This document shows, piece after piece, positions 1,431 through 58,165 of a DNA stretch of 64,000 nt. Made by a program: the position numbers and the translations under genes. The notes under the pieces were generated by a model. It worked only from the letters and a program-made list of their open reading frames with translations. It was not told the origin of the DNA and made no database searches. Source of the DNA: Corbicula japonica (taxonomy: Eukaryota > Mollusca > Bivalvia > Venerida > Cyrenidae); contig JAZAYU010000013.1 in assembly GCA_038501625.1 (NCBI GenBank), positions 9,424,001 to 9,488,000 on the forward strand. The letters run 5' to 3'. Numbering within the stretch: position 1 is the stretch's first letter; every line of letters begins with the position of its first letter.

Positions 1431-1932
1431 TGAGAGAAATGACGTCACAGCAGTGAAATATTTTAAAAGATTAAGTGTCTCTGACGAACCATAAAATTTC
1501 CCGTTGTTTTATATACTCGTGGACAAAAGTCTTGTCCGGTATGGTTTTCCTTAATATATTTTAAACGCGTGAAGTTACGACCTTGAAATTTTGCCTACTT
1601 TATATCGTCTGTATTTAAAATCGGTTTTTAAAATTTGATTGTCGTGTGCGCGTTAACAACGGACGTACACTACCGGCGACGTTTTTTACGTTCCCCCGCG
1701 TAGCATGGTCGTTATGCCGCCGAAGTTGGCGCTTAAATCAATGGCAGTTCTGTTAACGGATTAGTGTAAATTTAACGTTGATTCAAGCGACCGCAGCCGT
1801 CAAAATGTCTATCGACGCTCTAGTGAGAGGTTTACGGACGTTTGTATGATTAAAAATGACCGATGGGTGGGCCAAGCGTCATGGTTTGGGCAGGGTTTAC
1901 ACATCATCATAAAACTAAACTTCCTCGAATAT

Positions 1933-1943
1933 GGTCGAGGACG
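1933..1943 (+). repeat. 11-base flanking direct repeat, left
   Basis: GGTCGAGGACG at 1933-1943 is repeated exactly at 9081-9091, immediately outside the inverted termini of the inserted element. It is best read as a target-site duplication made when the 7.1 kb element entered the transposase gene. Microhomology is the alternative. Confidence 0.7.
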
Positions 1944-2021
1944 GATAGCGCTATATTACGATACTTGAGGGATAGAAATGTAACAATAACTGAGGGTAGA
2001 CCGCCTTCGGAATGTCAATCA

Positions 2022-2155
2022 ATTGTCATATATTATCGTTGTCATCTCTTAATGTTCGCGTGTTGACAAATCCACATGAAATTGCAAGATTGTCATATAT
2101 TATCGTTGTCATCTCTTAATGTTCGCGTATTGACAAATCCACATTAAATTGCTAG
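2022..2155. repeat. 67-base direct duplication near the left end
   Basis: Two adjacent copies, starting at 2022 and 2089, share ATTGTCATATATTATCGTTG and the following bases with only a few differences. They lie inside the left end of the satellite-bearing element, between its terminus and the array. I see no counterpart at the right end. Confidence 0.85.
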
Positions 2156-2159
2156 AATT

Positions 2160-2529
2160 TGGATTGGATTGTTTTGTAACAGAGTTCAAGTTAATAAAAA
2201 CTATTCTTTGTATTTATATATTTGTGATGGAACGTCTAAAAACTTACAATAGGAACTGTTAATTATAGCTTTTTAGTCTGTACAAGGAAGAGACTAGTAA
2301 AGGATAAAATTCGCACATCATAGTTTTTGAATGATACTAATGAAGAGACAATTACTAAATATTAAATGTACGGTTGGGTCCTTCATCTAATTATTTTATC
2401 AGATTCCGAGCTTCAGGTATATTTCAACCGGATTAAATTGTGCTTATGTAGGCTCGATGTGTGCCTTTGGAATGACGACCTCTGAATGTCCATGTCAAGC
2501 GATAGGTCTTTTACTATGACGAGACAGAC
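2160..2529. other. left subterminal sequence of the inserted element
   Basis: About 370 bases between the 67-base duplication and the first clear satellite monomer. No open frame of note. It may be a decayed first monomer, but I cannot align it by eye. Confidence 0.4.
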
Positions 2530-5500
2530 AAGAAAAGCAACTATTTCATGAGTGAATTCTTGTAATATGACATTAAAACATGTATTGAGTATTTCTTTAG
2601 CCCAATACTTGAGGGTCGCGGTCATTGTAAAGTGCATTTTCGAGTTAATTTGCGCGCATGAAAGAGAATTTGTAGGTAGATAGTTGTTACTAGCAGAGTT
2701 TTTAGTGACAATGTCATGTTCTGTGAAGTAAAACACTGTTGAAGAATCCAGTTTCAAACGGTACAACGCTTGAGAGTCTGTCATAAATAAAAATCGTTTT
2801 TGGAATGATCTTTCTTACTTCTTTGCGATTTCTCTTCAATTATTATCAGAAACCTTAAAAAAGAATGTGATTCGTGTATTTCTGTACGAGTACACGAAAA
2901 CCAATCATTTTATTCTATGTACATCACGTATAGTTGGTATTTCTAATGCCCAAAACGTGAGGATCTCGAACATTGTTTAGTGCATTTTAGAGCAAATTCG
3001 TGCAAGAACGAGAATTACTTTCACGTAAGTATAGTTGTTATAAGCCGAGTGTGCCCTGTAACTTAATGCTAACTTCTGTAAACTCAAACATTGTTGAAGA
3101 ATACAGTTGGAAAGGGTACAACGCTTGAGGGTCAATAATAAATAATGTCCTTTATTTCAAATTTTTTTTTTACTGCTTTGCGATTTCTCTTAATTTTTTT
3201 TTATGAGAAACTTTATGAAAGGATGTGATTCATGTATGTTTGTATTAAAACATGAAACCAATAACTTTATTCTATGTACAGCGGATATAGTAAGTAGTTC
3301 GAAAGCCCAATACCTGAGGGTCTCGGACATCGTAAAGTGCGTGTTAGTGTAAATTTGCTGAAGAAAGAGAATTTTGTGTGTATGCAGTTGTTAAAAGCAG
3401 AGTGTTTAATGTCAGTGAATGTTAGATTCTATAAAATTAAACATATTGTTGAAGAGTACATTTTCAATGGGTACAATACATGAGGGTAAATAATAAGTAA
3501 TGCATCATGTTACAAATGTTGGCTGTTGCTGTAATGCGATTACTCTTTAATTATGTTCAGAATCCTAAGAAAAATATGTGATTCAAGTTGCGTTCACCTA
3601 ATACATTACAGCCAATCACTTCCTTCTATCTACATAAGATATTTTGAGCATTTATACAACCCAAAATATATGAGGGTCGTGTGAAAGAAACGAGATACGG
3701 AGCCTGAGTTTTTCATTCACAAAAAAACGTGTAATTTTTTTAGTGAAAAGTTGTTATAACCATAGGTTGGTAAGAAATTTAATGTTAGCTACTGCTAACA
3801 CAAACATTTGAATGAAGAGTCCAATCTAATGGGTACAACACTTGAGGGTTACTAACAAATGAGGTTTATTATGCCAACTGCTTAACGTCGCGTTCATGCG
3901 ATGATTCTTTAATAATGGGGATATACATATTAAGAAAAGCATATATTTCATGAATGAATTCTTGCATTATTACATTAAAAGCGATTTTCTTCTAATATAC
4001 AGTGCATGTAGTTCTTGATCCCAATACTTGAGGGTCGCGGTAATGTGTAAATTGCATTTTAGAGCCACTCCGTGCCCAATAAAAAGAATTTATGAAGGAA
4101 AGTTGTTATAAGCAGAGGATTTTATGTTACTTGATGCTATGCTCTGTAAACTAAAACACTTTTGAAGAATCCAGTTTTAAAAGAAACAACGCGCGAGGGT
4201 CAATAATAAATAGTTATCTTTATTTTAAATTATGTTTCTTACTTATTTGCGATTTCTCTTAAATTGTTAACAAAACTCTTATGAAAAGATCTGATTCATG
4301 TATTTTTGTATTAATTCATGAAACCCAATCACTTAATTCTATGTACAGCGGATATAGATGGTATTTCTAATGCCCAATACCTGAGGGTGGCGAACATTGT
4401 TCAGTGCATTTTGTAGCCAATTCGTGCAAGAACGAGAACTTGGTTATGTAGATAGCTGTTATAAGTAGATTGTATTCTGTACTTTAATTTTAACTCATGT
4501 AAACTCAAACATTGTTGAAGAACCCAGTTAGAAAGAGTACATCGCTTGAGGGTCAATCATAAATAACGTTCTTCATCCCAAATGCTCCTTTTTGTACTGC
4601 TTTGCTATTTTTCTTAAATTGTTATCAGAAACCTTATGAAATGATCTGATTCGCGTATTTTTTGTATTAAAACATGAAAACCAATAAAATTTTTATGTAC
4701 AACGCATGTAGTTGGTATTTCTGAAGGAAAATACCTGAGGGTCTCGGACATCGTAAAGTGCATTTTAGAGCCAATTCGCCCACGAGGAGATTTTTTGTAT
4801 ATAGGTAGTTGTTATAAGCAGAGTGTTTAATGTCACTTAATGTTAGAATATGTAAAAATAAACATATTGTTGAAGCGTACATTTGCAATGGCTACAATAT
4901 TTGAGGGTCAATAGTAAGTAATGCACCTGATAACAAATGCTGGCTGTTGCTGTAATGCGATTTCTCTTTAATTGTGTTCAGAATCCTTAGAAAAGTATCT
5001 AAATCATGTTTCGTTCACATAATACATTAGAACCAATCGCTGTCTTATATCTACATCATATATGTTGAGCATTTCTAAAACCCAACACCTGAGGGTCGCG
5101 TGAAAGGAAAGAGATACGGAGAGATATTCATTCACTCAAACGTATTGTTTTTAAGTAAAAAGTTGTTATAACAATAGTTTGGCAAGAAAATAAATATATA
5201 CTGCTGTGTACTCAAACATTTTGATGAAGTCCAGTTCTTATGGGTGCAACACTTGAGGAATTTCTATTTGAAATGTATCTACACCTCCCAATTCTTAAGT
5301 ATTTCGGAGTCCTTTAACTACTGGATGTGCCAGCAAATGTATTTGATTTAGCACTTAAATGGATTCATGTTTCGTTTACCTAATACATTAAAACCAATCA
5401 CTTTATTCTACTTACATCACGTATTTTGAGCATTTCTAAACCTCAACACCTGAGGGTCGCGAAAAAGAGAAGAGAAACGGATTGTTTTTGATGCACTTAA

Positions 5501-8500
5501 ATGTATTGTTTTTAAGTAGAAATTTGTTATAACTATAATTTGGTAAGAAATTAAATGTTACCTGCTCCCTACTGAGACATTTTGGTGAAGAGTCCAGTTC
5601 ATATGGGTGCAACACTTGAGGGTTACTCACAAATGATGTTTCTTATGCCAACTGCTAAGTGCGACTGTCGTTAGATCAGTCTTTAACAATGGTGAGACCC
5701 AAATGAGAAAAACATATATTTCATGAAAGAATTATTGTATTATTACATTAAAAACCATTTGCTTATATACACAGTGCATGAAATGGGTATTTCTAAAGCA
5801 CAACACTTGAGGGTCGCGGTAATTGTTGATTGCATTACAGAGCCATTTCGCGCGCAATAAAAGAATTTTTTGTGTATAAACAGAGTGTTTCATGTCACTT
5901 AATGTTGATATGTTCTGTAAAGTAAAACACTGTGGAAGAATCCATTTGCAAAGGGTACAACGCTTGAGGGTCAGCGAAATACAACTGTCTTTATATTGAA
6001 TGTCTCTTGAATTGTTATGAGAGGTCATATGAAAGGATCTTATTCATGTAATTTTGTATGAATATATGAAGAACAATCACTTAATTCTATGTTCAGCACA
6101 TAAAGTTGGAATTTCTAATGCCCAATACCTGAGGGTCGCGAACATCTTAAAGTGCATTTTACAGCCATTTCGTGCAAGAAAGAGACTTATGTTCATGTAG
6201 TTAGTTGTTATAAGCAGAGTGTGTTCTGAAAATTAATGTTAAGTTCTGTAAACTCGAACATCGTTGAAGAATCAATTTGCAAAGGGTACAACGTTTGAGG
6301 GTCAGCCATAAATAACGTTCTTTGTTTCAAATGGGTTTCTTACTGCTTTCCGATTTCTCTTAAATTGTTATCCGAAACCTTGGAAAAGGATGTGATTCGG
6401 ATATTTTGTATGAATAAATGAAAACTAGCCACTTTATTCTATGTACAGCGCACATAGTTGGTATTTCGAATGTCCAATACCTGAGGGTCGCGAACATCGT
6501 AAAGTGCGTTTTAGAGCCAATTCTTACACGAAGGAGAGTTTGTGTGTGTAGAAAGTTGTTATAAGCATAGGATTAAATGTCACTTAATGTTAGGTTTTGT
6601 AAACTTAAACATATTGTTCAAGCGTACATTTGTAATGGGTACAATACTTGAGGGTCAATAATAACGTATGTACCTTATAACGATTGCTGAATGTTGCTGT
6701 CATGCGATTTCTCTATTATTATGTTGAGAATCGTAAGAAAAATATCTGATTCATGTTTTGTTTACCTAATACATTAAAACCAATCACTTTATTATATTTA
6801 CATCAAGTATTTTGAGCATTTCTAAACCCCAACACCTGAGGGTCGCGAAAAAGAGAAGAGAAACGGAATGTTTTTTTTCCATTAACTTAAACGAATTGTT
6901 GTTAAGTAACAAGTTGTTAGAACTTTAGTTAGTCAAGAAATTAAAAGTTAGCTGCTGCCTACTGAGACATCTTGGTGAAGAGTGCAATTCATATGGGTGC
7001 AACACTTGAGGGTTACTCACAAATGATGTTTCTTATGCTTACTGCTAAGTGCGACTGTCATGAGATCAGTCTTTAACAATGGTGAGACCCAAATGAGAAA
7101 AACACATTTATAGTTCATGAATGAATTATTGTATTATTACATTAAACCCCATTTACTTATATACACAGTGCATGTATTGAGTATCTCTAAAGCACAATAC
7201 TTGAGGGTCGCGGTAATTGTTAATTGCATTACAGAGCAATTTCGAGCGCAATAAAAGAGTTTTTAGTGTATAAGCAGAGTGTTTCATGTCACCTTATGTT
7301 AATATGTTCTGTAAAGTAAAACACTGTGGAAGAACCCATTTGCAAAGGGTACAACGCTTGAGGGTCAACGAAATATAACTGTCTTTATATTAAATGTGTT
7401 CTTACTGCTTTGCGATTTCTCTTGAATTGTTATGAGAGATCACATGAAAGGATCTTATTCATGTAATTTTGTATGAATATATGAAGAACAATCACTTAAT
7501 ACTATGTTCAGCACATAAAGTTGGAATTTCTAATGCCCAATACCTGAGGGTCGCGAACATCGTAAAGTGCATTTTACAGCCATTTCGTGCAAGAAAGAGA
7601 CTTATGTTCATGTAGTTAGTTGTTATAAGCAGAGTGTGTTCTGAAAATTAATGTTAAGTTCTGTAAACTCGAACATTGTTGAAGAATCAATTTGCAAAGG
7701 GTACAACGTTTGAGGGTCAGCAACGTTCTTTGTTTCAAATGGGTTTCTTACTGCTTACCGAGTTCTCTTAAATTATTATCCGAAACCTTGGAAAAGGACG
7801 TGATTCGGATATTTTGTATGAATAAATGAAAACTAACCACTTTATTCTATGTACAGTGCACATAGTTGGTATTTCGAATGTCCAATACCTGAGGGTCGCG
7901 AACATCGTAAAGTGCGTTTTAGAGCCGATTCTTACACGAAGGAGAGTTTGTGTGTGTAGAAAATTGTTATAAGCATAGGATTTAATGTCACATAATGTTA
8001 GGTTTTGTAAACTTAAACATATTGTTCAAGCGTACATTTGTAATGGGTACAATACTTGAGGGTCAATAGTAACGTATGTACCTTATAACAAATGCTGGTT
8101 GTTGCTCACATGCGATTTCTCTATTATTATGTTGAGAATCGTAAGAAAAATATCTGATTCATGTTTTGTTTACCTAATACATTAAAACCAATCACTTTAT
8201 TCTATTTACATCACGTATTTTGAGCATTTCTAAACCCCAACACCTGAGGGTCGCGAAAAAGAGAAGAGAAACGGAATGGTTTTTTTTCATTATTTTAAAC
8301 GAATTGTTGTTAAGTAACAAGTTGTTAGAACTTTAGTTAGTCAAGAGATTAAAAGTTAGCTGCTGCCTACTGAGACATTTTGGTGAAGAGTGCAATTCAT
8401 ATGGGTGCAACACTTGAGGGTTACTCACAAATGATGTTTCTTATGCCAACTGCTAAGTGCGACTGTCATGAGATCAGTCTTTAACAATGGTGAGACACCA

Positions 8501-8960
8501 ATAAGAAAAAACATATATTTCAGAATGAGTTATTGTATTATTACATTGAAAACCATTCGCTTATATACACAGTGCATGTATTGGTTATGGCTAAAGCACA
8601 ACACTTGAGGGTCGCGGTAATTGTAAAGTGCATTACAGAGCCATTTCGCGTGCAATAAAGAGCAATTTTTGTGTATAAGCAGAGTGTTTCATGTCACTTA
8701 ATGTTAATATGTTCTGTAAACTAAAACACTGTCGAAGAATCCATTTGCAAAGGGTACAACGCTTGAGAGTCAACGATATATAACAGTCTTTATTTTGAAT
8801 GTGTTCCTTACTGCTTTGCGATTTCTCTTGAATTGTTATGAGAGATCACATGAAAGGATCTAATTCATGTAATTTTGTATGAATATATGAACAACAATCA
8901 CGTAATTCTATGTTCAGCGCATATAGTTGGTATTTCTAATGCCCAATACCTGAGGGTCGC
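2530..8960. repeat. higher-order satellite of four ~350-base monomer types
   Basis: A TGAGGGT box (TGAGGAT in the copy at 2958) marks each monomer. By flanking sequence the boxes fall into four types in fixed order. B is followed by CGCGGTAATTG: 2610, 4029, 5808, 7202, 8606. C is preceded by AATGCCCAATACC: 2958, 4382, 6130, 7545, 8951. D is followed by the AGCGTACATTTG half-unit: 3315, 4736, 6482, 7890. A is followed by GAAAAAGAGAAGAGAAACGG or a related run: 3671, 5090, 5451, 6837, 8245. The B-C-D-A unit is about 1.39-1.42 kb. One extra A monomer (5090 and 5451) makes one period 1779. A second box, GGTACAACGCTTGAGGGT or GGTGCAACACTTGAGGGT, lies about 165 bases after each first box. Units 3 to 5 (from 5451) are more alike than units 1 and 2. 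Confidence 0.93.
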
Positions 8961-9080
8961 ATTGGTTAAATGCAGTCCTGTAACTAATTGGAACAAGGCG
9001 GAGCAAATGGGCGGAGCATTTAAAGTAGGCGTGCCACCCTCACGTATTGTGTCCCTGAAGTATCGAGAAATAGCGTTTCC

Positions 9081-9091
9081 GGTCGAGGACG
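9081..9091 (+). repeat. 11-base flanking direct repeat, right
   Basis: GGTCGAGGACG, identical to 1933-1943. The transposase frame resumes directly after it. Confidence 0.7.
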
Positions 9092-9687
9092 CGGTCGTGG
9101 CTTAACTTCACAACGTTACGTAGACCAGGTGTTGCAGCCGATTATTCTCCCATTCCTTACTGCTCATCCAGGTACTGTTCTAGAGCAGGACAACGCCCGG
9201 GCCCATTCTGCAAGGCTGACTCAAAACTTTCTGGCGGCCAACCATGTCCAAACGTTGCCATTGCCGGCTTTATCGCCGGATATGAACCCAATCGAACACG
9301 TTTGGGACTACATGACGTCCATCAATAACGGGAATAGCTCAGGAATGTGACCATCTTCCGGCTAGATTCCTGAACAGACTCGTAGCGTCAACGCGTCAAG
9401 GGTGCACTGAACTCATTCGGGTTAATGGGGGTCATACACACTATTGAAAAGGCGGTTTAATTTAAGACATACTCGATGCAATCACATGTGTCTTGTTAAT
9501 CCAAAAATGACAATTTTCAACACATTATTCATCTGGCAGTTCTAGCTCAAATTCCAAAATTCTTTGTTCTTTAAATGCATGTAAATTTCCTCTTTTCATC
9601 GATACCAAATTTATGAGTTTGTGATAAAAAACAACAAAGATATCTTAGTTTTTGTAGACCGGACAAGACTTTTGTCCACGAGTATAT

Positions 9688-13746: not shown

Positions 13747-13955
13747 TGGCCCAAGATCATAAAACTAAATCAGGGTTGGAGGTTATAAAACTGAGTTTGG
13801 AAACCAGTCTCAAATCTCAAGCATCTGATTGGCTGAAATGGCGACCAGTCGCGATTTCAGCCAATGAGATGCTTGAGATTTGAGACTGGTTTCCATGCTC
13901 AGCTTTATAACCTTCAGGCCAGGAGACCAGTCTGAAATCTCAAGCATCTGAGCAT
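13747..13955. mobile_element. PAL-B element split by a PAL-A insertion
   Basis: The type B left end GGCCCAAGATCATAAAACTA occurs at 13749-13768. A full PAL-A follows, and after it the B arm resumes at about 13921 with GGAGACCAGTCTGAAATCTC. This nesting orders the two insertions: B first, then A. Confidence 0.85.
13771..13918. mobile_element. PAL-A palindromic MITE nested in PAL-B
   Basis: Complete palindrome, from GGTTATAAAACTGAGTTTGG to CTCAGCTTTATAACCTTCAG, inside the PAL-B remnant. Confidence 0.95.
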
Positions 13956-15772: not shown

Positions 15773-15922
15773 GTGCCCAAGGTTATAAAACTGAGCATGG
15801 AAACCAGTCTCAAATCTCAAGCATCTGATTGGCTGAAATGGCGACCAGTCGCCTTTTCAGCCAATCAGATGCTTGAGATTTGAGACTGGTTTCCAAACTC
15901 AGTTTTATAACCTTCAGCCCAG
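15773..15922. mobile_element. PAL-A palindromic MITE
   Basis: Complete palindrome from GTGCCCAAGGTTATAAAACT to TTATAACCTTCAGCCCAGG. It directly abuts the next PAL-B. Confidence 0.95.
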
Positions 15923-16069
15923 GGCCCAAGATCATAAAACTAAGTTTTGAGATCAGTCTCAAATCTCAAGGATCTGATTAGCTGAAATGGCGACTTGTCG
16001 CCATTTCAGCCAATCAGATGCTTGAGATTTGAGACTGATCTCCAGATTTAGTTTTATGATCTTGGGCAC
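15923..16069. mobile_element. PAL-B palindromic MITE
   Basis: Complete type B palindrome immediately after the PAL-A copy, ending TTTTATGATCTTGGGCAC. Confidence 0.95.
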
Positions 16070-36984: not shown

Positions 36985-37705
36985 AGCAAAAGGTTACAGA
37001 TGCAAGCTACACGAGAGTAAGCTACAAAAGTTTACAGATGCAAGCTACACCAGAGCAAGCTACATAAGGTTACAGTTGCAAACTACACCAGAGCAAGCTA
37101 CAAAAGGTTACAGCTGCAAGCTACACTAAAGCAAGCTACATAAGGTTACAGTTGCAAGTCACACCAGAGCAAGCTACATAAGGTTACAGTTGCAAGCTAC
37201 ACTAGAGCAAGCTACAAAAGGTTACAGCTGCAAGCTACACTAAAGCAAGCTACATAAGGTTACAGTTGCAAGTCACACTAAAGCAAGCTACATAAGGTTA
37301 CCGTTGCAAGCTACACCAGAGCAAGCTACAAAAGGTTACAGTTGCAAGCTACACTAGAGCAAGCTACAAAAGGTTACAGTTGCAAGCTACACTAGAGCAA
37401 GCTACAAAAGGTTACAGTTGCAAGCTACACTAGACCAAGCTACAAAAGGTTACAGTTGCAAGCTACACCAGAGCAAGCTAAAAAAAGTTTACAGTTGCAA
37501 GCTACACCAGAGCAAGCTACAAAAGGTTACAGTTGCAAGCTACACCAGAGCAAGCTACAAAAGGTTACAGTTGCAAGCTACACTAGAGCAAGCTACATAA
37601 GGTTACAGTTGCAAGCTACACTAGAGCAAGCTACAAAAGGTTACAGTTGCAAGCTACACCAGAGCAAGCTACATAAGGTTACAGATGCAAGCTACACCAG
37701 AGCTT
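36985..37705. repeat. 38-base minisatellite, about 19 units
   Basis: The unit is GCAAGCTACACCAGAGCAAG followed by CTACAAAAGGTTACAGTT, with C/T and AA/TA variants. It lies in an intron of the glycine-rich locus, about 35 bases upstream of the 36951 acceptor. The open frames with LQATPEQATKGYSC repeats are shadows of it. Confidence 0.97.
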
Positions 37706-41234: not shown

Positions 41235-41855
41235 CATAGGCCAACTCATTTGACGAACTCTTTAAAGAACTCTTTTAAAGAATTCTTATGTAGAGTGCAT
41301 ACACAGAACTCTTTTCATAACAGCATACACCAAACTCTTTTGAAAAACTCTTTTGAAAATAGTATACAGCAAACACTTGAAGAATTCTTTTGAAGAGAGC
41401 ATAATATACTATACTCTTTTGAAGAACTCTTTTGAAGAGAGCATATATACTTTACTCTTTTGAAGAACTCTTTTAAAAAGGGTATACACCAAACTCTTGA
41501 GGAACTCTTTTGGTGAGAAAATATACTATACTATTTTACAGAACTCTTTTGAAGAGAGCATTTACTAAATTCTATGAAGAACTCTTTTGAAGATAGTATA
41601 CACCAAACACTTTCCAAGAACTCTTTTGAAGATAGTATACACCAAACTCTTTCGAAGAACTCTTTTGAAGATAGTATACACCAAACTCTTTCGAAGAACT
41701 CTTTTGAAGATAGTATACACCAAACTCTTTCGAAGAACTCTTTTGAAGATAGTATACACCAAACTCTTTCAAAGAACTCTTCTGAAGAGAGCATTCAGCA
41801 AATTCTTATGAAGAACTCTTTTGAAGATAGCTTACACCAAACGCTTTGAAATAGA
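41235..41855. repeat. 39-base minisatellite
   Basis: The regular core at 41574-41790 repeats AGAACTCTTTTGAAGATAGT then ATACACCAAACTCTTTCGA. Flanking units are more variable. 39 is a multiple of 3 and no stop falls in several frames, so five overlapping open frames of 65-91 codons appear on both strands. These are artefacts. Confidence 0.96.
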
Positions 41856-41859
41856 TGAA

Positions 41860-42025
41860 AAAAGAACTCTGAAAGCCACCAAACACAACAAATATGAAAA
41901 TACTGCAGGCTCTGTTTGATTGAGCCTGTTCATGGGCAGTGATGGGATTGCATATTATTGCCCACGCCGCCTAGCCCCGGGTTGAGCGCAACTCAGAAAT
42001 TACACCATTTCGATCCATCCCAAAT
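41860..42025. other. non-repeat island within the 39-base array
   Basis: Contains AAATATGAAAATACTGCAGG and TTTGATTGAGCCTG, resembling 16255-16300. Possibly a small insertion. The rest is GC-richer (GCCCACGCCGCCTAGCCCCG) with no frame. Confidence 0.5.
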
Positions 42026-42029
42026 GATA

Positions 42030-42310
42030 GGAACTCTTTTGAAGACAGCATAAACTATACTCTATTGAAGAACTATTTTGACGAGTAAACCAAACTCTTA
42101 AGAAATTCTCTTAAAGAGAGCATACACCAAACTCTTTTGAAGAACTCTTTTGAAGAGAGCATACACCAAACGCTTTTGATGAGAGCATATACTTAACTCT
42201 TTTGAAGAAATCTTTTGAAGAGTATACACCAAACTCTTGAAGAATTCTCTTGAAAAGAGCATACGCCAAACTCTCTTGAAGAGAGCATACACCAAAACTC
42301 TAAAAGAATT
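42030..42310. repeat. 39-base minisatellite, second block
   Basis: Variable-length units of GAAGAACTCTTTTGAAGAGA then GCATACACCAAACTC. Confidence 0.92.
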
Positions 42311-44145: not shown

Positions 44146-45110
44146 ATTATCAAAATGTTGGTATTGATTGTGTTTGAGTGGATGAGCATGTTGGTGTTGA
44201 GTTGTGTGTCTTAATATGAGTATGTTGACTGTGTATGATGACCGAGTATTGATGTAAGGATTGAGTATGTCAATGTTGGCTGTGTGCCTGAGTGAATGAG
44301 TATGTTGATGTTGGCTGTAGGCCTAAGTGGGTGAGTATGTTGATGTTGGCTGTGTGCCTGATAGGATGAGTATAATGATGTTGGCTGTGTGCCTGATAGG
44401 ATGATGGTGTTGATGTTGGCTGTGTGCTTGAGTGGATGAGTATGTTGGTGTTTGCTGTGTGCCTGAGTGGATGAGTATGTTAATGTTGGCTGTGTGGAGT
44501 GGATAAGTATGTAGCTGTTGCGTGTGTGCCTGATAGGATGAGTATGTTGATATTGGTTGTGTTCCTGTGTGGATGATCATGTTGATGTTGGCTTTGTGCC
44601 TGAGTGGATAAGTATGTTGATGTTGGTTGTGTGCCTGAACAGATGAGTATGTTGATGTTGGCTTTGTGCCTGAGTGGAGAAGTATGTTGATATTGGCTGT
44701 ATGCCCGATTGGATGGGTATGTTTGTGTTGGCTGTGTGCCTGTGTGGGAGTATGTTGATGTTGGCAGTTTGCCTGTGTTTGAGTAAGTTGATATTGGTTA
44801 TATGCCCGAGTGGATGAGTATGTTGATATTGGTCATGCACTATGAGATGACGAGAACATTGACAGTGTGCTTGACTGATTGAGTATGTTGGTGTTGGCTA
44901 TATACCGGACTGGATGAGTATGTTTGGTTTGGTTGTGTGCCTGAGTGGATAAGTATGTCAGTGTTGGCTGTGTGCTTGAGTGAGTGACGTTATTGGTGCT
45001 GTTGTGCATGTTTCCATGTGCCTGAGTGGATTAGTATGTTGATGTTGGCCCTCTGTCAGTGTATGAGTATGTTTATATTTGCCGCGTGCTGATAGGATGA
45101 GTATGTTGAT

Positions 45111-46471
45111 GTTAGCTTGTTGCCTGAGTGGATGACTGTTATTATTGGCCGAGTGCCTGAGTGGAATAACTATGTTGGTGTTAGCAGTGTGCCTGAGTAG
45201 ATGAGTATGTTCTGATGGCCCTGTGCCTGAGTGTATAAGTATGATGGTGCTGGCCATATGCTTGAATGGATAAGCATGTTGGTGTTGGCCATTTGCATGA
45301 GTGGATAAGTATGTTGATTGTGGCCATGTGCCTAAGTGGATTAGTATGTTTGTGTTGGCTTTGTGTTTGAGTGGATGAGTAAGTTAGTTGTGGCCTATGC
45401 TTGAGTGAATGAGTATGTCTGTAGTTGCCGTGTGCCAGAGTGAATGAGTATGTCGGTGTTGGCTATGTGCCCAAGTGGAAGAGTATGTTTGTGTTGGTCG
45501 TGTGTATGAGTGGCAAAGTATGATGGTGTTGGCCATGTGGCTGAGTGGAAGAGTATGCGGCTGTTTGCCATGAGCCTTAGTGAATGAGTATGTTGGGTGT
45601 TGGCCGTAAGCTTAAATGGATGAATGTGGGCATTGGCTCTGTGCCTATTTTGATAAGACTGTGGGAAGTGACTGTGTGCTCAAATGATTGAGGTGTTGTG
45701 TTTTCTCTATGCCAATATGGATAAGTTGATGTTGGTGGTGGCCAGAATTAGTATTTTTGGTGTTGGCTGGGTGGATGAGTATGTTTTGTGTTTCATTCAT
45801 GTCATAATGGCTGAGAATGTTGTTGTTGACTGTGTGACTGAATGGATGACTATGTTGTAATGGACTGTGGACAAAAAGAAGATTAAGTTTCTGATGGCTG
45901 TGTGCCTGAAATGATTCTTATGTTGGTGTTGACTGTGACTAAGTGTATAAGTACAAGTCTGTTCAATGTGTGCCTGCGTGGATGAGAATGTTGGTGTTGA
46001 CTGTGCCAAAGTGTATGAGTATATGTCTGTTTACTGTGTGCCTGAGTGGATGAGTATGTTGGTGTTGACATTGCTCAAGTGTATGAGTATATGTCTGGTA
46101 ACTGTGTGCCAGGGTTGATGAGAATGTTGGTGTTGACTGTGCCCAAGTGTATGAGTATATGTCTGTTAACTGTGCGCCTGAGTGGATGAGTATGTTGGTG
46201 TTGACTGTGCCCAAATGTATGAGTATATGTCTGTTAACTGTGTGCCTGAGTGGATGAGTATGTTGCTGTTGACTGTGCCCAAGTGTATGAGTATATGTCT
46301 GTTAACTGTGTGCCTGAGTGGATGAGTGTGTTGATGTTGACTGTGCCCAAGTGTATGAGTATATGTCTGGTAACTGTGTATCTGAGTGGATGAGTATGTT
46401 GGTGTTGACTGTGCCCAAGTGTATGAGTATATGTCTGTTAACTGTGCGCCTGAGTGGATGAGTATGTTGGT
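45111..46471. repeat. 1361-base tandem duplication, copy 1
   Basis: Sequence from GTTAGCTTGTTGCCTGAGTG onward recurs 1361 bases later (46472) with very few differences, including non-repeat landmarks such as GACAAAAAGAAGATTAAG and CATGAGCCTTAGTGAATGA. The copies are adjacent. Confidence 0.95.
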
Positions 46472-47832
46472 GTTAGCTTGTTGCCTGAGTGGATGACTGT
46501 TATTATTGGCTGAGTGCCTGAGTGGAATAACTATGTTGGTGTTAGCAGTGTGCCTGAGTAGATGAGTATGTTCTGATGGCCCTGTGCCTGAGTGTATAAG
46601 TATGATGGTGCTGGCCATATGCTTGAATGGATAAGCATGTTGGTGTTGGCCATTTGCATGAGTGGATAATTATGTTGATTGTGGCCATGTGCCTAAGTGG
46701 ATTAGTATGTTTGTGTTGGCTTTGTGTTTGAGTGGATGAGTAAGTTAGTTGTGGCCTATGCTTGAGTGAATGAGTATGTCTGTAGTGGCCGTGTGCCAGA
46801 GTGAATGAGTATGTCGGTGTTGGCTATGTGCCCAAGTGGAAGAGTATGTTTGTGTTGGTCGTGTGTAGGAGTGGCAAAGTATGATGGTGTTGGCCATGTG
46901 GCTGAGTGGAAGAGTATGCGGCTGTTTGCCATGAGCCTTAGTGAATGAGTATGTTGGGTGTTGGCCGTAAGCTTAAATGGATGAATGTGGGCATTGGCTC
47001 TGTGCCTATTTTGATAAGACTGTGGGAAGTGACTGTGTGCTCAAATGATTGAGGTGTTGTGTTTTCTCTATGCCAATATGGATAAGTTGATGTTGGTGGT
47101 GGCCAGAATTAGTATTTTTGGTGTTGGCTGGGTGGATGAGTATGTTTTGTGTTTCATTCATGTCTTAATGGCTGAGAATGTTGTTGTTGACTGTGTGACT
47201 GAATGGATGACTATGTTGTAATGGACTGTGGACAAAAAGAAGATTAAGTTTCTGATGGCTGTGTGCCTGAAATGATTCTTATGTTGGTGTTGACTGTGAC
47301 TAAGTGTATAAGTACAAGTCTGTTCAATGTGTGCCTGCGTGGATGAGAATGTTGGTGTTGACTGTGCCAAAGTGTATGAGTATATGTCTGTTTACTGTGT
47401 GCCTGAGTGGATGAGTATGTTGGTGTTGACATTGCTCAAGTGTATGAGTATATGTCTGGTAACTGTGTGCCAGGGTTGATGAGAATGTTGGTGTTGACTG
47501 TGCCCAAGTGTATGAGTATATGTCTGTTAACTGTGTGCCTGAGTGGATGAGTATGTTGCTGTTGACTGTGCCCAAATGTATGAGTATATGTCTGTTAACT
47601 GTGTGCCTGAGTGGATGAGTGTGTTGATGTTGACTGTGCCCAAGTGTATGAGTATATGTCTGGTAACTGTGTATCTGAGTGGATTAGTATGTTGGTGTTG
47701 ACTGTGCCCAAGTGTATGAGTATATGTCTGTTAACTGTGTGCCTGAGTGGATGAGTATGTTGGTGATGACTGTGCCCAAGTGTATGAGTATATGTCTGTT
47801 AAATGTGCGCCTGAGTGGACGAGTATGTTGGT
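46472..47832. repeat. 1361-base tandem duplication, copy 2
   Basis: The second copy. Homology becomes blurred near 47.55 kb, where the ~68-base unit count differs. Confidence 0.93.
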
Positions 47833-48051
47833 GTTGACTGTGCCCAAGTGTACGAGTATATGTCTGGTAACTGTGTATCTGAGTGGATGAGTATGTTGGT
47901 GTTGACTGTGCCCAAGTGTACGAGTATATGTCTGTTAAATGTGCGCCTGAGTGGATGAGTATGTTGGTGTTGACATTGCCCGAGTGTATGAGTATATGTC
48001 TGTTTACTGTGTGCCTGAGTGGATGAGCATGTTGGTGTTGGCTGTGTGCTT

Positions 48052-49456
48052 GAGTGAACTAGAATTTGGTGCTCCACGGAACACGTGTGTCCTGCTTGCA
48101 AAAAGTTTAAACATGTGCCTATGTTTAATCATATATGCTAAAAAAATTAATTAATGTTTATTGCAATACCTAACCATGTCACCTTTATTGCATTTGAAAT
48201 GGGCTTAACTAAAACAAAAATGGTGAAACCTGAGTTATCATTCTTCACCAATAGCTATGTGCATGCAGATGATATATTCCAAGTATTAAGTGAATTGGAC
48301 AAGTACTTCAATGTTACAGCCAGCATTTTCATATTAAAGTTGCATCTGAAAGGGGCTTAACTCATAAAATAGTCTAACCCGAGTTTTCATTCTTTTTGTC
48401 ACCATGGCGTTGCATTTGAACAGGGTATAACACATCAAATATTGAAACAGAAGTAATCTTTCTTGTCACAGATGACGTTGTTCATGTTCATGATATATTC
48501 TGAGTATTAAGAGAATAGAATAAGTAATTTCAAAGTTAAAGTTCACTTTCAAGTTTCATGTTAAAGTTGCATTTGAAAGGGGCATAACTCAAACAATATT
48601 GAAACAGGAGTTATAATTTTTGTTGTCTACAAAGGCACTGTTCATTTTGATGATACAATCCAAGTATTGAATGAATAGGAAAAGTACTTTCAAATTATAC
48701 ACAAAATTAAGTGTCTTGTGAAATTTGCATTGAAAGGGGCATAACTCAAAAAATAGTCAAACAGGAGTTATGAGTCTTGTTGTAACCGATGTCGTTGTTG
48801 TTCATGAAGATGATATATTCAAAGAGTGAATAGGACAAGTACTTTAAAAGTTAAGTTTCATGTTAAAGTTACATATTAAAGGGAAACAACTCATCAAATA
48901 GTCAAACAGGAGTTATCATTTTGTTTTTCATAATGAAGTTGTTCATGAAGATGATTTCTTTTGAATATTAAGTGAATTGGACAAGTACTTTCAAAGTTAA
49001 AGTCAACATTAAGTTTCATGTTATAATCGCATTTGAAAGGGGCATAACTCAAAAAATATTCAAACTGGACTTATGATTCTTGTTGTAACCGCTGTTGTTG
49101 TTCTTCATGCTGATGATATATTCCAAGTATGAAGTGAATAGGACAAGTACTTTCAAAGTTATAGGCAACATTAAGTTTCATGTTAAAGTTGCATTTGAAA
49201 GGGGCATAACTCAAAAATTATTGAAACTGGAGTTATGATTCTTGTTGTAACCACTGTTGTTGTTCATGCTGATGATATATTCAAAGTATGAAGTGAATAG
49301 GACAAGTACTTTCAAAGTTAAAGGCAACATTAAGTTTCATATTAAAGTTGGGGGACTACAAGACGACGGCACTGCGGACGATGATGACAATGACGACATC
49401 GCTGGACAATAGGATCCCTATGTGTCTACCTGATTTCGCAGGTGACACAAAAAATA
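48052..49456 (+). mobile_element. pearl/Helentron-like element inserted in the ~35-base array
   Basis: The 5-prime end is ACTAGAATTTGGTGCTCCAC then GGAACACGTGTGTC. The middle holds about seven or eight ~159-base cores (CATAACTCAAA, GAGTTAT and so on). The 3-prime end is AAAGTTGGGGGACTACAAGA, GACAATAGGATCCCTATG, a small hairpin (ACCTG and CAGGT) and GACACAAAAA. The 35-base array is present on both sides. Tandem cores between fixed ends match pearl elements of bivalves, now grouped with non-autonomous Helentrons. That class is from memory. Confidence 0.82.
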
Positions 49457-50435: not shown

Positions 50436-51395
50436 TTTGCCTTAAAAGTCTACACTTGTTATCAAACATGACTGAATCAGAAGAGGACTTGCCATAAAAG
50501 TCTACACTTGTTATCAAACATGACTGAATCAGAAGAGGACTTGCCATAAAAGTCTACACTTGTTATCAAACATGACTGAAGCAGAAGAAGACTTGCCATA
50601 AAAGTCTACACTTGTTATCAAACATGACTGAATCAGAAGAGGACTTGCCATAAAAGTCTACACTTGTTATCAAACATGACTGAATCAGAAGAGGACTTGC
50701 AATAAAAGTCTACACTTGTTATCAAACATGACTGAATCAGTAGAGGACTTGCCATGAAAGTCTACACTTGTTATCAAACATCATAGACTGAATCAGAAGA
50801 GGACTTGCCATAAAAGTCTACACTTGTTATCAAACATGATTGAATCAGAAGAAGACTTGCCATAAAAGTCTACACTTGTTATCAAACATGACTGAATCAG
50901 AAGAGGACTTGCCATAAAAGTCTACACTTGTTATCAAACATGATTGAATCAGAAGAAGACTTGCCATAAAAGTCTACACTTGTTATCAAACATGATTGAA
51001 TCAGAAGAGGACTTGCCATAAAAGTCTACACTTGTTATCAAACATGATTGAATCAGAAGAGGACTTGCCATAAAAGTCTACACTTGTTATCAAACATGAC
51101 TGAAGCAGAAGAAGACTTGCCATAAAAGTCTACACTTGTTATCAAACATGATTGAATCAGAAGAGGACTTGCCATAAAAGTCTACACTTGTTATCAAACA
51201 TGATTGAATCAGAAGAAGACTTGCCATAAAAGTCTACACTTGTTATCAAACATGATTGAATCAGAAGAGGACTTGCCATAAAAGTCTACACTTGATCAAC
51301 CATGATTAAAGCCGAAGAGGATTTGCCATAAAATCTACACTTCATCAAACTTGATTAAAGCCTTAGAGGATTTGCCATAAAATCTACACTTGTTG
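50436..51395. repeat. 52-base minisatellite, about 18 units
   Basis: The unit is TCTACACTTGTTATCAAACA then TGACTGAATCAGAAGAGGAC and TTGCCATAAAAG. GAGGAC/GAAGAC and GACTGA/GATTGA variants alternate. The last two units degenerate. Related single units occur near 58185-58300 and 58600. Confidence 0.97.
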
Positions 51396-52360: not shown

Positions 52361-53698
52361 CTAGAATGTTGTGTTCCGCGGAACACATGTGTCGCCTGCT
52401 TGGAAAACGTTGAAATGTGGGCCTATGTTTAATCATATATAATAAAAATATTTTATTGAAGTTGATTTCAATACTACACAACAGAACACATGTGTCATCT
52501 AAATTACATTTAAAAGGGGAATAACTAAAATAATGGTGAAACCTGAGTTATCATTTTCAAAAATTGTTTTGTAAATGCAGATGAGTTATTCAAAGTATTA
52601 AGTGAATTAATTGAAGAAGTAATTTCCATTTTACAGGCAACACTAAGTTTCATGTTAAAGTTGCATTTGAAAGGGATATTACTCATAAAATATTGAAACT
52701 GGAGTTATCATTCTTGTCATCACAGATGGCATTGTTAGTGCTGATGATATATTCCAAGTACGAAGTGAATAGGACAAGTACTTTCAAAGTTATAGGCAAC
52801 ATTAAGTTTCATGTTAAAGTTGCATTTAAAAGGGGCATAACTCAAAAAATATTGAAACTGGAGTTATCATTCTTGTCGTCACAGATAGCACTGTTCATGC
52901 TGATGATATATTCCAAGTATGAAGTGAACAGGACAAGTACTTTCAAAGTTATAGGCAACATTAAGTGTCAGGTTAAAGTTGCATTTGAAAGGGGCATAAC
53001 TCAAAAAATATTGAAACTGGAGTTATCATTCTTGTCGTCACAGATGGCATTGTTCGTGCTGATAATATATTTCAAGTATGAAGTGAATAGGACAAGTACT
53101 TTCAAAGATATAGGCAATATTAAGTTTCAGGTTAAAGTTGCATTTGAAAGGGGCATAACTCAAAAAATATTGAAACTGGAGTTATCATTCTTGTTGTCAC
53201 AGATGGCACTGTTCATGCTGATGATATATTCCAAGTATGAAGTGAATAGGAGAAGTATTTTCAAAGTTATAGGCAACATTAAGTTTCAGGTTAAAGTTGC
53301 ATTTGAAAGGGGCATAACTCAAAAAATATTGAAACTGGAGTTATCATTCTTGTCGTCACAGATGGCATTGTTCGTGCTGATGATATATTTCAAGTATGAA
53401 GTGAATAGGACAAGTACTTTCAAAGTTATAGGCAACATTAAGTTTCAGGTTAAAGTTGCATTTGAAAGGGGCATAACTCAAAAAATATTGAAACTGGAGT
53501 TATCATTCTTGTCATCACAGATGGCATTGTTCGTGCTGATGATATATTCCAAGTATGAAGTGAATAGGACAAGTACTTTCAAAGTTATAGGCAACATTAA
53601 GTTTCAGGTTAAAGTTGGGGGACTACCGGACGACGCCGACGCCGCCGCCGGACAATAGGATCCCTATGTGTCTACCTGCTATCGCAGGCGACACAAAA
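52361..53698 (+). mobile_element. pearl/Helentron-like element with six in-phase 159-base cores
   Basis: The 5-prime end is ACTAGAATGTTGTGTTCCGC then GGAACACATGTGTCGCC. The cores have AGGGGCATAACTC at 52831, 52990, 53149, 53309 and 53468, that is 159 bases apart. The 3-prime end is AAAGTTGGGGGACTACCGGA, GACAATAGGATCCCTATG, a hairpin CTACCTG/CGCAGG and GACACAAAAA. As 159 is 53 codons, the cores give a 321-codon open frame (52693-53658) that also runs through the GC-rich tail. I do not call it a gene because the same core elsewhere has no frame constraint. Confidence 0.85.
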
Positions 53699-57454: not shown

Positions 57455-58165
57455 ATTTCATTCCAAGAGCAATATAACCCCAAGAACAAACTCATCCAAA
57501 GAACAAACACATCCCAAGAACAATCTCACCCCAAGAACAATCTTACCCCAAGAACAATCTCACCCAATGAACAAACTCACCCCAAGAACAATCTTACCCC
57601 AAGAACAATCTGACCCCAAGAACAATCTAACCCCAAGAACAATCTCACCCCAAGAACAAACTCACCCCAAGAACAAACTCACCCCAAGAACAATCTCACC
57701 CCATGAACAAACTCACCCCAAGAACAATCTCACCCCAAGAACAATCTCACCCCAAGAACAATCTTACCCAAAGAATTAACTCACATCAAGAACAATCTCA
57801 CCCCAAGAACAAACTCACCCCAAGAACAATCTCACCCCAAGAACAAACTCACCCCAAGAACAAACTCACCCCAAGAACAATCTCACCCCAAGAACAAACT
57901 CACCCCAAGAACAATCTCACCCCAAAACTCACCCCAAGAACAACTCACCCCAAGAACAATCACCCCAAGAACAAACTCACCCCAAGAACAAACTCACCCC
58001 AAGAACAAACTCACCCCAAGAACATTCTCACCCCAAGAACAAACTCACCCCAAGAACAATCTCACCCCAAGAACAAACTCCCACCAAGAACAATCTCACC
58101 CCAAGAACAAACTCACACCAAGAACAATCTCACCCCAAGAACAAACTCATCCGGAGAGCAATCTC
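57455..58165. repeat. 17-base minisatellite, about 40 units
   Basis: The unit is CACCCCAAGAACAATCT or CACCCCAAGAACAAACT. Because 17 is not a multiple of 3 and all three frames lack stops, each frame cycles through NKLTPRT, ISPQEQ and THPK, giving 125- and 169-codon frames that look like a Pro/Gln/Thr-rich protein. I treat these as artefacts. Confidence 0.97.

Follow-up and report, generated by a model that had tools for sequence, protein, structure and literature searches.

A block of 7,139 bp that interrupts a Tc1-like transposase copy in Corbicula japonica is bounded by short terminal inverted repeats (TIRs), and 89% of it is a satellite array that runs in one direction throughout. Its ends are common to 23 loci in the genome, one of which lies in the window (the 64,000-nucleotide stretch of contig JAZAYU010000013.1 analysed here). 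Exact duplications of 9 or 10 bp flank 19 of these loci, Tc1-like relatives of the interrupted copy are empty at the site, and a colinear copy of the whole array is present elsewhere. The reading that we hold to be highly probable is that of a family of satellite-bodied TIR elements that likely moves by cut-and-paste through a trans-acting, probably Mutator-type transposase, and whose array would have grown from a subterminal box and would be planted whole at each jump. The block had been noticed in an initial annotation made from the letters alone. It is confirmed as real, and its description there as a non-autonomous TIR element bearing a long satellite fits the sequence. Coordinates of all features are collected in Table 1.

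Table 1. Features of the satellite-bearing element and of its insertion site (positions are those of the window)
Feature	Position (nt)	Strand	Basis or remark
Interrupted Tc1-like copy, left part, already decayed	1700–1942	+	85.8–95.1% identity to seven paralogues, themselves uninterrupted
Left target-site duplication, GTCGAGGAC	1934–1942	+	identical to 9082–9090; single copy in six of seven Tc1 paralogues, one base off in the seventh
Element, 7,139 bp, GGATAG...TTTCCG, no coding capacity found	1943–9081	+	edges placed where other copies cease matching
Left terminal inverted repeat, 29 bp	1943–1971	+	agrees with the right repeat at 21/29 positions, aligned without gaps from the last base
Left subterminal box, CAATAACTGAGGGT	1984–1997	+	13/14 to satellite A consensus; score reached by left 63 bp in 5/2000 shuffles
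Tandem duplication of 67 bp, two copies, in left non-satellite segment	2022–2156	+	Tandem Repeats Finder
Satellite array, alternating A and B half-units, 353-bp dimers	2589–8965	+	box positions and spacings, self-comparison
Right subterminal box, CAATACGTGAGGGTGGC, orientation opposite to that of the array	9033–9049	-	15/17 to satellite A consensus; score reached by right 54 bp in 4/2000 shuffles
Right terminal inverted repeat, 29 bp	9053–9081	-	21/29 identical to the left one
Right target-site duplication, GTCGAGGAC	9082–9090	+	identical to 1934–1942
Interrupted Tc1-like copy, right part	9082–9560	+	DDE_3 domain in 9084–9347

The insertion site

The Tc1-like reading continues up to ...KTKLPRIWSR at nt 1942 and is taken up again as ...LTSQRYVDQ beyond nt 9081, which bears out the break after KTKLPRI and the resumption at LTSQRY described in the initial annotation. 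The right half of the interrupted copy gives a Pfam DDE_3 match (E 2.4e-9). An 11-base direct repeat had been described at the borders of the block, and GGTCGAGGACG does stand on both sides of it (nt 1933–1943 and 9081–9091). However, comparison with other copies (GGATAG...TTTCCG) assigns the G at either edge of the block to the element, so that the target duplication is the 9-bp GTCGAGGAC (at other loci it is sometimes 10 bp) and the element begins and ends with these two bases.

All seven Tc1-like relatives that were fetched, from 38 other Tc1 matches listed, are uninterrupted at this site. On each of them the two flanks of the element overlap by exactly nine bases, which read GTCGAGGAC in six and have one base changed in the seventh. 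Empty relatives had been anticipated for an insertion of this kind, and none of the seven carries the satellite at this place, with or without flanking repeats. The Tc1 copy is the target of the element, not its carrier. The TA target duplication by which Tc1/mariner elements are recognised is not seen for the element, whose duplications are 9–10 bp. At window nt 1700 the Tc1 copy itself is without some 400–790 bp (mostly ~497 bp) that its paralogues have there.

Structure of the element and its array

Read as inverted repeats, the two ends agree at 21 of 29 positions, and at 22 of 31 when 31 positions are compared; an inverted match had been recognised before, at a slightly higher figure (about 23 of 31). 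The left TIR contains GATACTTGAGGG. Non-satellite sequence is limited to ~646 bp at the left end and 116 bp at the right. No Rfam family was found at nt 1700–9600, and no frame in the window's copy exceeds 133 aa; the one of this length (nt 2416–2814, minus strand) gave only a sub-threshold Pfam match (FANCI_S2, 15.2 bits relative to a cut-off of 37.8).

The array is built on the box TGAGGGT, exact copies of which number 33 on the + strand and one on the other, the number predicted from base composition being 0.34. Boxes alternate between two contexts, A (CCCAATACCTGAGGGTCGCG) and B (GGTACAACGCTTGAGGGTCAA), with spacings of ~187 and 166 bp that add up to a 353-bp dimer, and 36 of them, allowing no more than one mismatch, fall on this A/B lattice. 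When the right half of the array is compared with itself, a shift of 1,386 bp gives 92.4% identity and one of ~353 bp gives 74–76%, indicating that four dimers form a higher-order unit of ~1.4 kb in this half. In the left half, the corresponding shift (1,419 bp) gives only 79.6% identity.

Copies of the family in the genome

Probes from the two ends (nt 1934–2165, 232 bases, and nt 8950–9091, 142 bases) were compared with the 1.07-Gb genome from which the element comes. The left probe gave 31 matches of 93–100% identity, two of them inner pieces, and the right probe gave 26 of 90–100%. Left matches that reach the end start at query base 7–10, the window's own excepted, and 23 of the 26 right matches end at query base 132–134. 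Both ends are paired on one contig at 23 loci, including the window, a count that leaves out unpaired ends (left only on C1338, C843, C35, C413, C49 and C7; right only on C242 and C140) as well as the scar on C84 described below. Exact target duplications of 9 bp are present at 16 of the 23 paired loci (that of C10 being counted across a nested insertion) and of 10 bp at three. At C11 the duplication agrees in eight of nine bases, and at the remaining three (C578, C46a and C12) there is none. The recurrence of these ends elsewhere, on which the initial annotation had laid weight, is thus borne out at 22 other loci, mostly between exact 9–10 bp duplications.

A degenerate pattern of the 29-bp end, with three mismatches allowed, was found at 55 places with zero or one mismatch and at 18 with three, the latter belonging to one other repeat; the reversed control of this pattern gave 0 places. 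A shorter, earlier pattern had given 26 exact places, 22 with three mismatches and one control match. The other repeat with a similar 29-mer (18 copies at three mismatches, and 21 copies of its 23-mer) was rejected as an end of the element, as homology continues upstream in the three copies read.

Six copies at six sites (C13, C30, C72, C22, C46a and C99) measure 7,139–7,171 bp. Over the left 1,650 bp, those of C72, C30, C22, C46a and C99 differ from the window copy by 0.24–0.61%, and that of C22, the sole copy compared in full with the window copy, is 99.2% identical to it and colinear over 7.1 kb. Left parts that differ by no more than about 0.6% in six copies, together with the colinearity of the C22 copy, make it likely that whole arrays have been copied recently. 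An exact duplication flanks five of these six; C46a, which is also young, has none. Other copies are 8.7–12.2 kb long, with two of 17.6 kb (C215) and 49.6 kb (C46b), and part of this length is inserted sequence rather than array. All 29 left ends were included in the left-end alignment, and those that align poorly with the window copy (C11, C413 and C186, 37–53% different; C49 and C7, ~20%) are taken for copies with insertions or rearrangements in their left parts.

The longest copy, C46b (C46:171422–221026), has an exact 9-bp duplication. Its flank is found again beside the single ends on C843, C35, C242 and C140, and this recurrence on four other contigs suggests a duplicated or haplotypic locus. 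C49 and C7 also have one flank in common.

With a 353-bp satellite probe, 40 of 175 candidate places were scored, and all 40 belong to the element family: paired elements contain 38 of them, and the other two (C140 and C35) are on contigs that have just one family end. Among these 40 places, no array was found outside family elements, and to this extent the satellite appears to be confined to the element.

At C84:654038, two copies of AAAACTAAA (9-bp target copies) enclose 28 bp of the right end. Relatives of the repeat that served as host are present in the window near nt 13,756 (+), 16,060 (-) and 24,264 (-), and these have the site only once. This suggests that C84 carries an excision scar and that copies also excise; as a single scar was seen, it could be the product of an aberrant event. 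A repeat related to the target of this scar forms a 149-bp tandem (ATCATAAAACTAA...CAGTCTCAAATCTCAAGCATCTGATT) at window nt 15775–16057.

Class and mobilising enzyme

Mutator-like elements are recognised by target-site duplications of 8–11 bp and by TIRs, and the present family has both, with the 9- and 10-bp duplications and the 29-bp TIRs given above. TIRs of hundreds of bp are described as common in that group, and 29 bp is short by comparison (PMC6446971). On the basis of target length and TIRs, the family is compatible in structure with the Mutator-like group, rather than being filed as a member of it, and the enzyme that is supplied in trans is probably of the Mutator type. The initial annotation had proposed either a Mutator-like or a foldback class; the first proposal stands in this sense, whereas the second does not, because the array is one-sided and runs in one direction (33 exact boxes to one) instead of forming the long inverted tandem-repeat termini of foldback elements.

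A search for the MULE domain (PF10551) gave 56 matches in the genome (150 of 166 candidates scored), none of which lies inside a paired family element. An autonomous relative encoding a transposase, such as the initial annotation had suggested looking for, did not come to light either; within three mismatches, the end pattern recovers only this family and the one other repeat. No coding region belonging to the family was found in the copies read (C215 in full, 30 of the 49.6 kb of C46b including both ends, the right 8.3 kb of C1a, and C800). In C46b there are other repeats, and also a frame of 263 aa that matched nothing in Pfam and that we take to be reverse-transcriptase-like.

The mobilising enzyme could instead come from a non-Mutator superfamily, for example that of a degenerate gene block in the C215 copy. 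This is unlikely. The C215 copy (17.6 kb, with an exact 9-bp duplication) includes ~7.4 kb of additional sequence. An open frame of 127 aa in it is matched 47 times across the genome, its own match counted, in some cases within open frames of 746–889 aa, and C215 and C88 both have a second frame ~1.2 kb beyond the first. However, the block at C88, 93% identical, lies on a contig that yielded no family end; the copies of C1a and C800 lack the block between their last boxes and the right end (the C800 array holds a box-free insert of ~3.4 kb); and the right end of C215, beyond its outer 144 bp, consists of a high-copy repeat (356 candidates). The block therefore looks like a later nested insertion. 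It was rejected as the family's own gene in view of the C88 copy, and the longer right end common to C215 and C46b was rejected as a parent form, since the part from 144 bp inward is that separate high-copy repeat. The two-frame block itself (C215:83051–84480, C88:1168029–1169436, C31 and others) gave no Pfam match for the pieces tested, and presumably belongs to another transposon family.

Origin of the array

The subterminal regions of the element, on both sides, contain a box that closely resembles the satellite A consensus (Table 1), and the same box heads nearly every satellite half-unit. When half-units from the left part of the array were pooled, the best conserved sequence was AATACTTGAGGG, a result that is partly built in, as the monomers were cut at that box. 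The outer 29-bp TIRs alone match half-unit A weakly on the left (score reached in 95/2000 shuffles) and not significantly on the right (944/2000), and half-unit B matches none of the four end sequences beyond chance (159, 586, 699 and 620 of 2000 shuffles).

A box common to half-unit A and to both ends favours growth of the array from the element's own subterminal sequence over capture of a satellite as cargo; the initial annotation had allowed for both, and capture is now held to be the less likely of the two. As far as can be judged from sequence, the array would represent subterminal, probably transposase-binding sequence that was amplified on the left side. The alternative, that a pre-existing genomic satellite was captured and is carried as passive cargo, the box in the ends being coincidental or brought in by the capture, appears improbable. 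It would agree with the small extent of the non-satellite ends, with the weak or missing match of the outer TIRs to the satellite, and with the want of any end match to half-unit B, but none of the 40 places scored, out of 175 candidates, showed an array outside the elements, and a captured satellite sits less easily with an A box in both subterminal regions.

Under growth from the subterminal region, the boxes near both ends, of the type CAATAxxTGAGGGT, would be what a transposase acting in trans recognises. The left subterminal region would probably have been duplicated in tandem to start the array, which unequal exchange in steps of 353 bp and 1.4 kb would probably then have enlarged, and each transposition would plant the complete array at a new site. 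A further step, which we offer tentatively and would place slightly below an even chance, is that the element's own end-recognition site has been turned into a satellite, a stack of ~36 putative transposase-binding boxes in a higher-order repeat. Such a stack would render an element without coding sequence strongly attractive to the trans-acting transposase, and complete higher-order arrays would be seeded genome-wide with each jump.

Two other explanations have very little to recommend them. Satellite loci are in general prone to misassembly, but chance end repeats or an assembly artefact, with local expansion of satellite inside a Tc1 copy, can be practically dismissed in the face of 22 other loci whose edges agree while their flanks differ, a control pattern without matches, and a colinear 99.2% copy on another contig. 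Helitrons are not known to make target duplications or inverted terminal repeats, and the element has TIRs and exact 9–10 bp duplications at 19 of 23 loci, so that a rolling-circle element of the Helitron/Helentron type is extremely improbable, even though the Cg_HINE elements of oysters have central tandem arrays between conserved flanks (PMC7492417).

Comparison with known elements

It has long been asked how satellites come to occupy new sites on chromosomes. Arrays of at least 6 kb at separate sites, with target duplications and empty relatives, make dispersal by cut-and-paste traceable copy by copy. The element would likely spread ready-made satellite arrays by jumping as one unit with a borrowed enzyme and, if the box is a transposase site, the family would also illustrate the origin of a satellite from the end of a transposon.

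Galileo, which has target duplications of 7 bp, differs from the present element in its long inverted termini and in belonging to a different superfamily. It is foldback-like, a member of the P-element superfamily, and its terminal tandem repeats provide extra binding sites for the THAP domain of the transposase (PMC3688188); binding sites in tandem repeats are a point of likeness, but only a proposed one for the present element.

Nearer in structure is Rehavkus, a Mutator-related group with a 9-bp target duplication, TIRs of 26–400 bp and a minisatellite before the 3' TIR, for which arthropods and annelids are the hosts listed (PMC6446971). The present element is like it in the 9-bp duplication, the TIRs and an array that ends 116 bp from the right end, although it has no gene by which a 3' end could be defined. 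It is unlike Rehavkus in that the array makes up 89% of the element, is one-sided and has higher-order structure. In Rehavkus-1_TC, the 164-bp satellite TCsat23 occurs in the inverted termini as short arrays, mostly of 5 and 8 monomers (PMC10218199). A PHD-finger transposase is a feature of Rehavkus, and no coding copy was found for the present family.

Tetris of Drosophila virilis, a foldback element placed in Mutator by its authors, is likewise non-autonomous, with no transposase copy found, and has duplications of 8–10 bp (PMC4079207). Its internal repeats are proposed to come from its terminal domain, on the strength of a shared 37-bp stretch, a parallel to the derivation of the array from the ends here. 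Unlike the present family, with its one-sided array and no free array among the 40 scored places, Tetris has its repeats in both inverted termini and also long free satellite arrays (PMC4079207). Among bivalves, the Cg_HINE Helentrons of the Pacific oyster are similar as non-autonomous mobile elements that spread satellite-like arrays (PMC7492417), but they belong to the Helentron superfamily and do not move by TIR transposition. For the clam Donax trunculus, a title cited in PMC11136912 points to TIR elements with tandem repeats (tandem repeat-containing MITEs), and the growth of tandem repeats within MITEs into satellites is covered in a review (PMC12628747).

TIR and Helentron elements with tandem repeats are thus already known (PMC4079207, PMC7492417, PMC12628747), and the present element is an extreme variant of them. 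It is unusual in its proportions (89% of 7 kb is satellite, with higher-order structure), in having the array on one side only, in a satellite that appears confined to the element, and in recent copies that are cleanly flanked by target duplications. No TIR element of such make-up was found in the literature searched, whose scope did not extend to most subscription papers and Repbase, and a precedent in print is possible.

Other repeats

In the C10 copy, the right end is split by a later insertion of 15.6 kb (~840017–855574). The ends of this insertion, CAATCTC...GAGATTG, are inverted repeats of each other, and it is flanked by the 9-bp duplication GGACACAAT; it is a second TIR family, with the same target length as the satellite-bearing element. 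An older interspersed repeat, found at 21 places, has in its interior GAAAACGCTATTTCCCAATACTTGAG, which is close to both the element end and the satellite box, and is possibly a distant relative or a chance resemblance. Other long tandem arrays in the 64 kb lie at nt 44262–48056, 50437–51394, 52617–53617, 57463–58165, 36987–37703 and 41305–42282, with periods of 35/68, 52, 159, 17, 38 and 39 bp, respectively.
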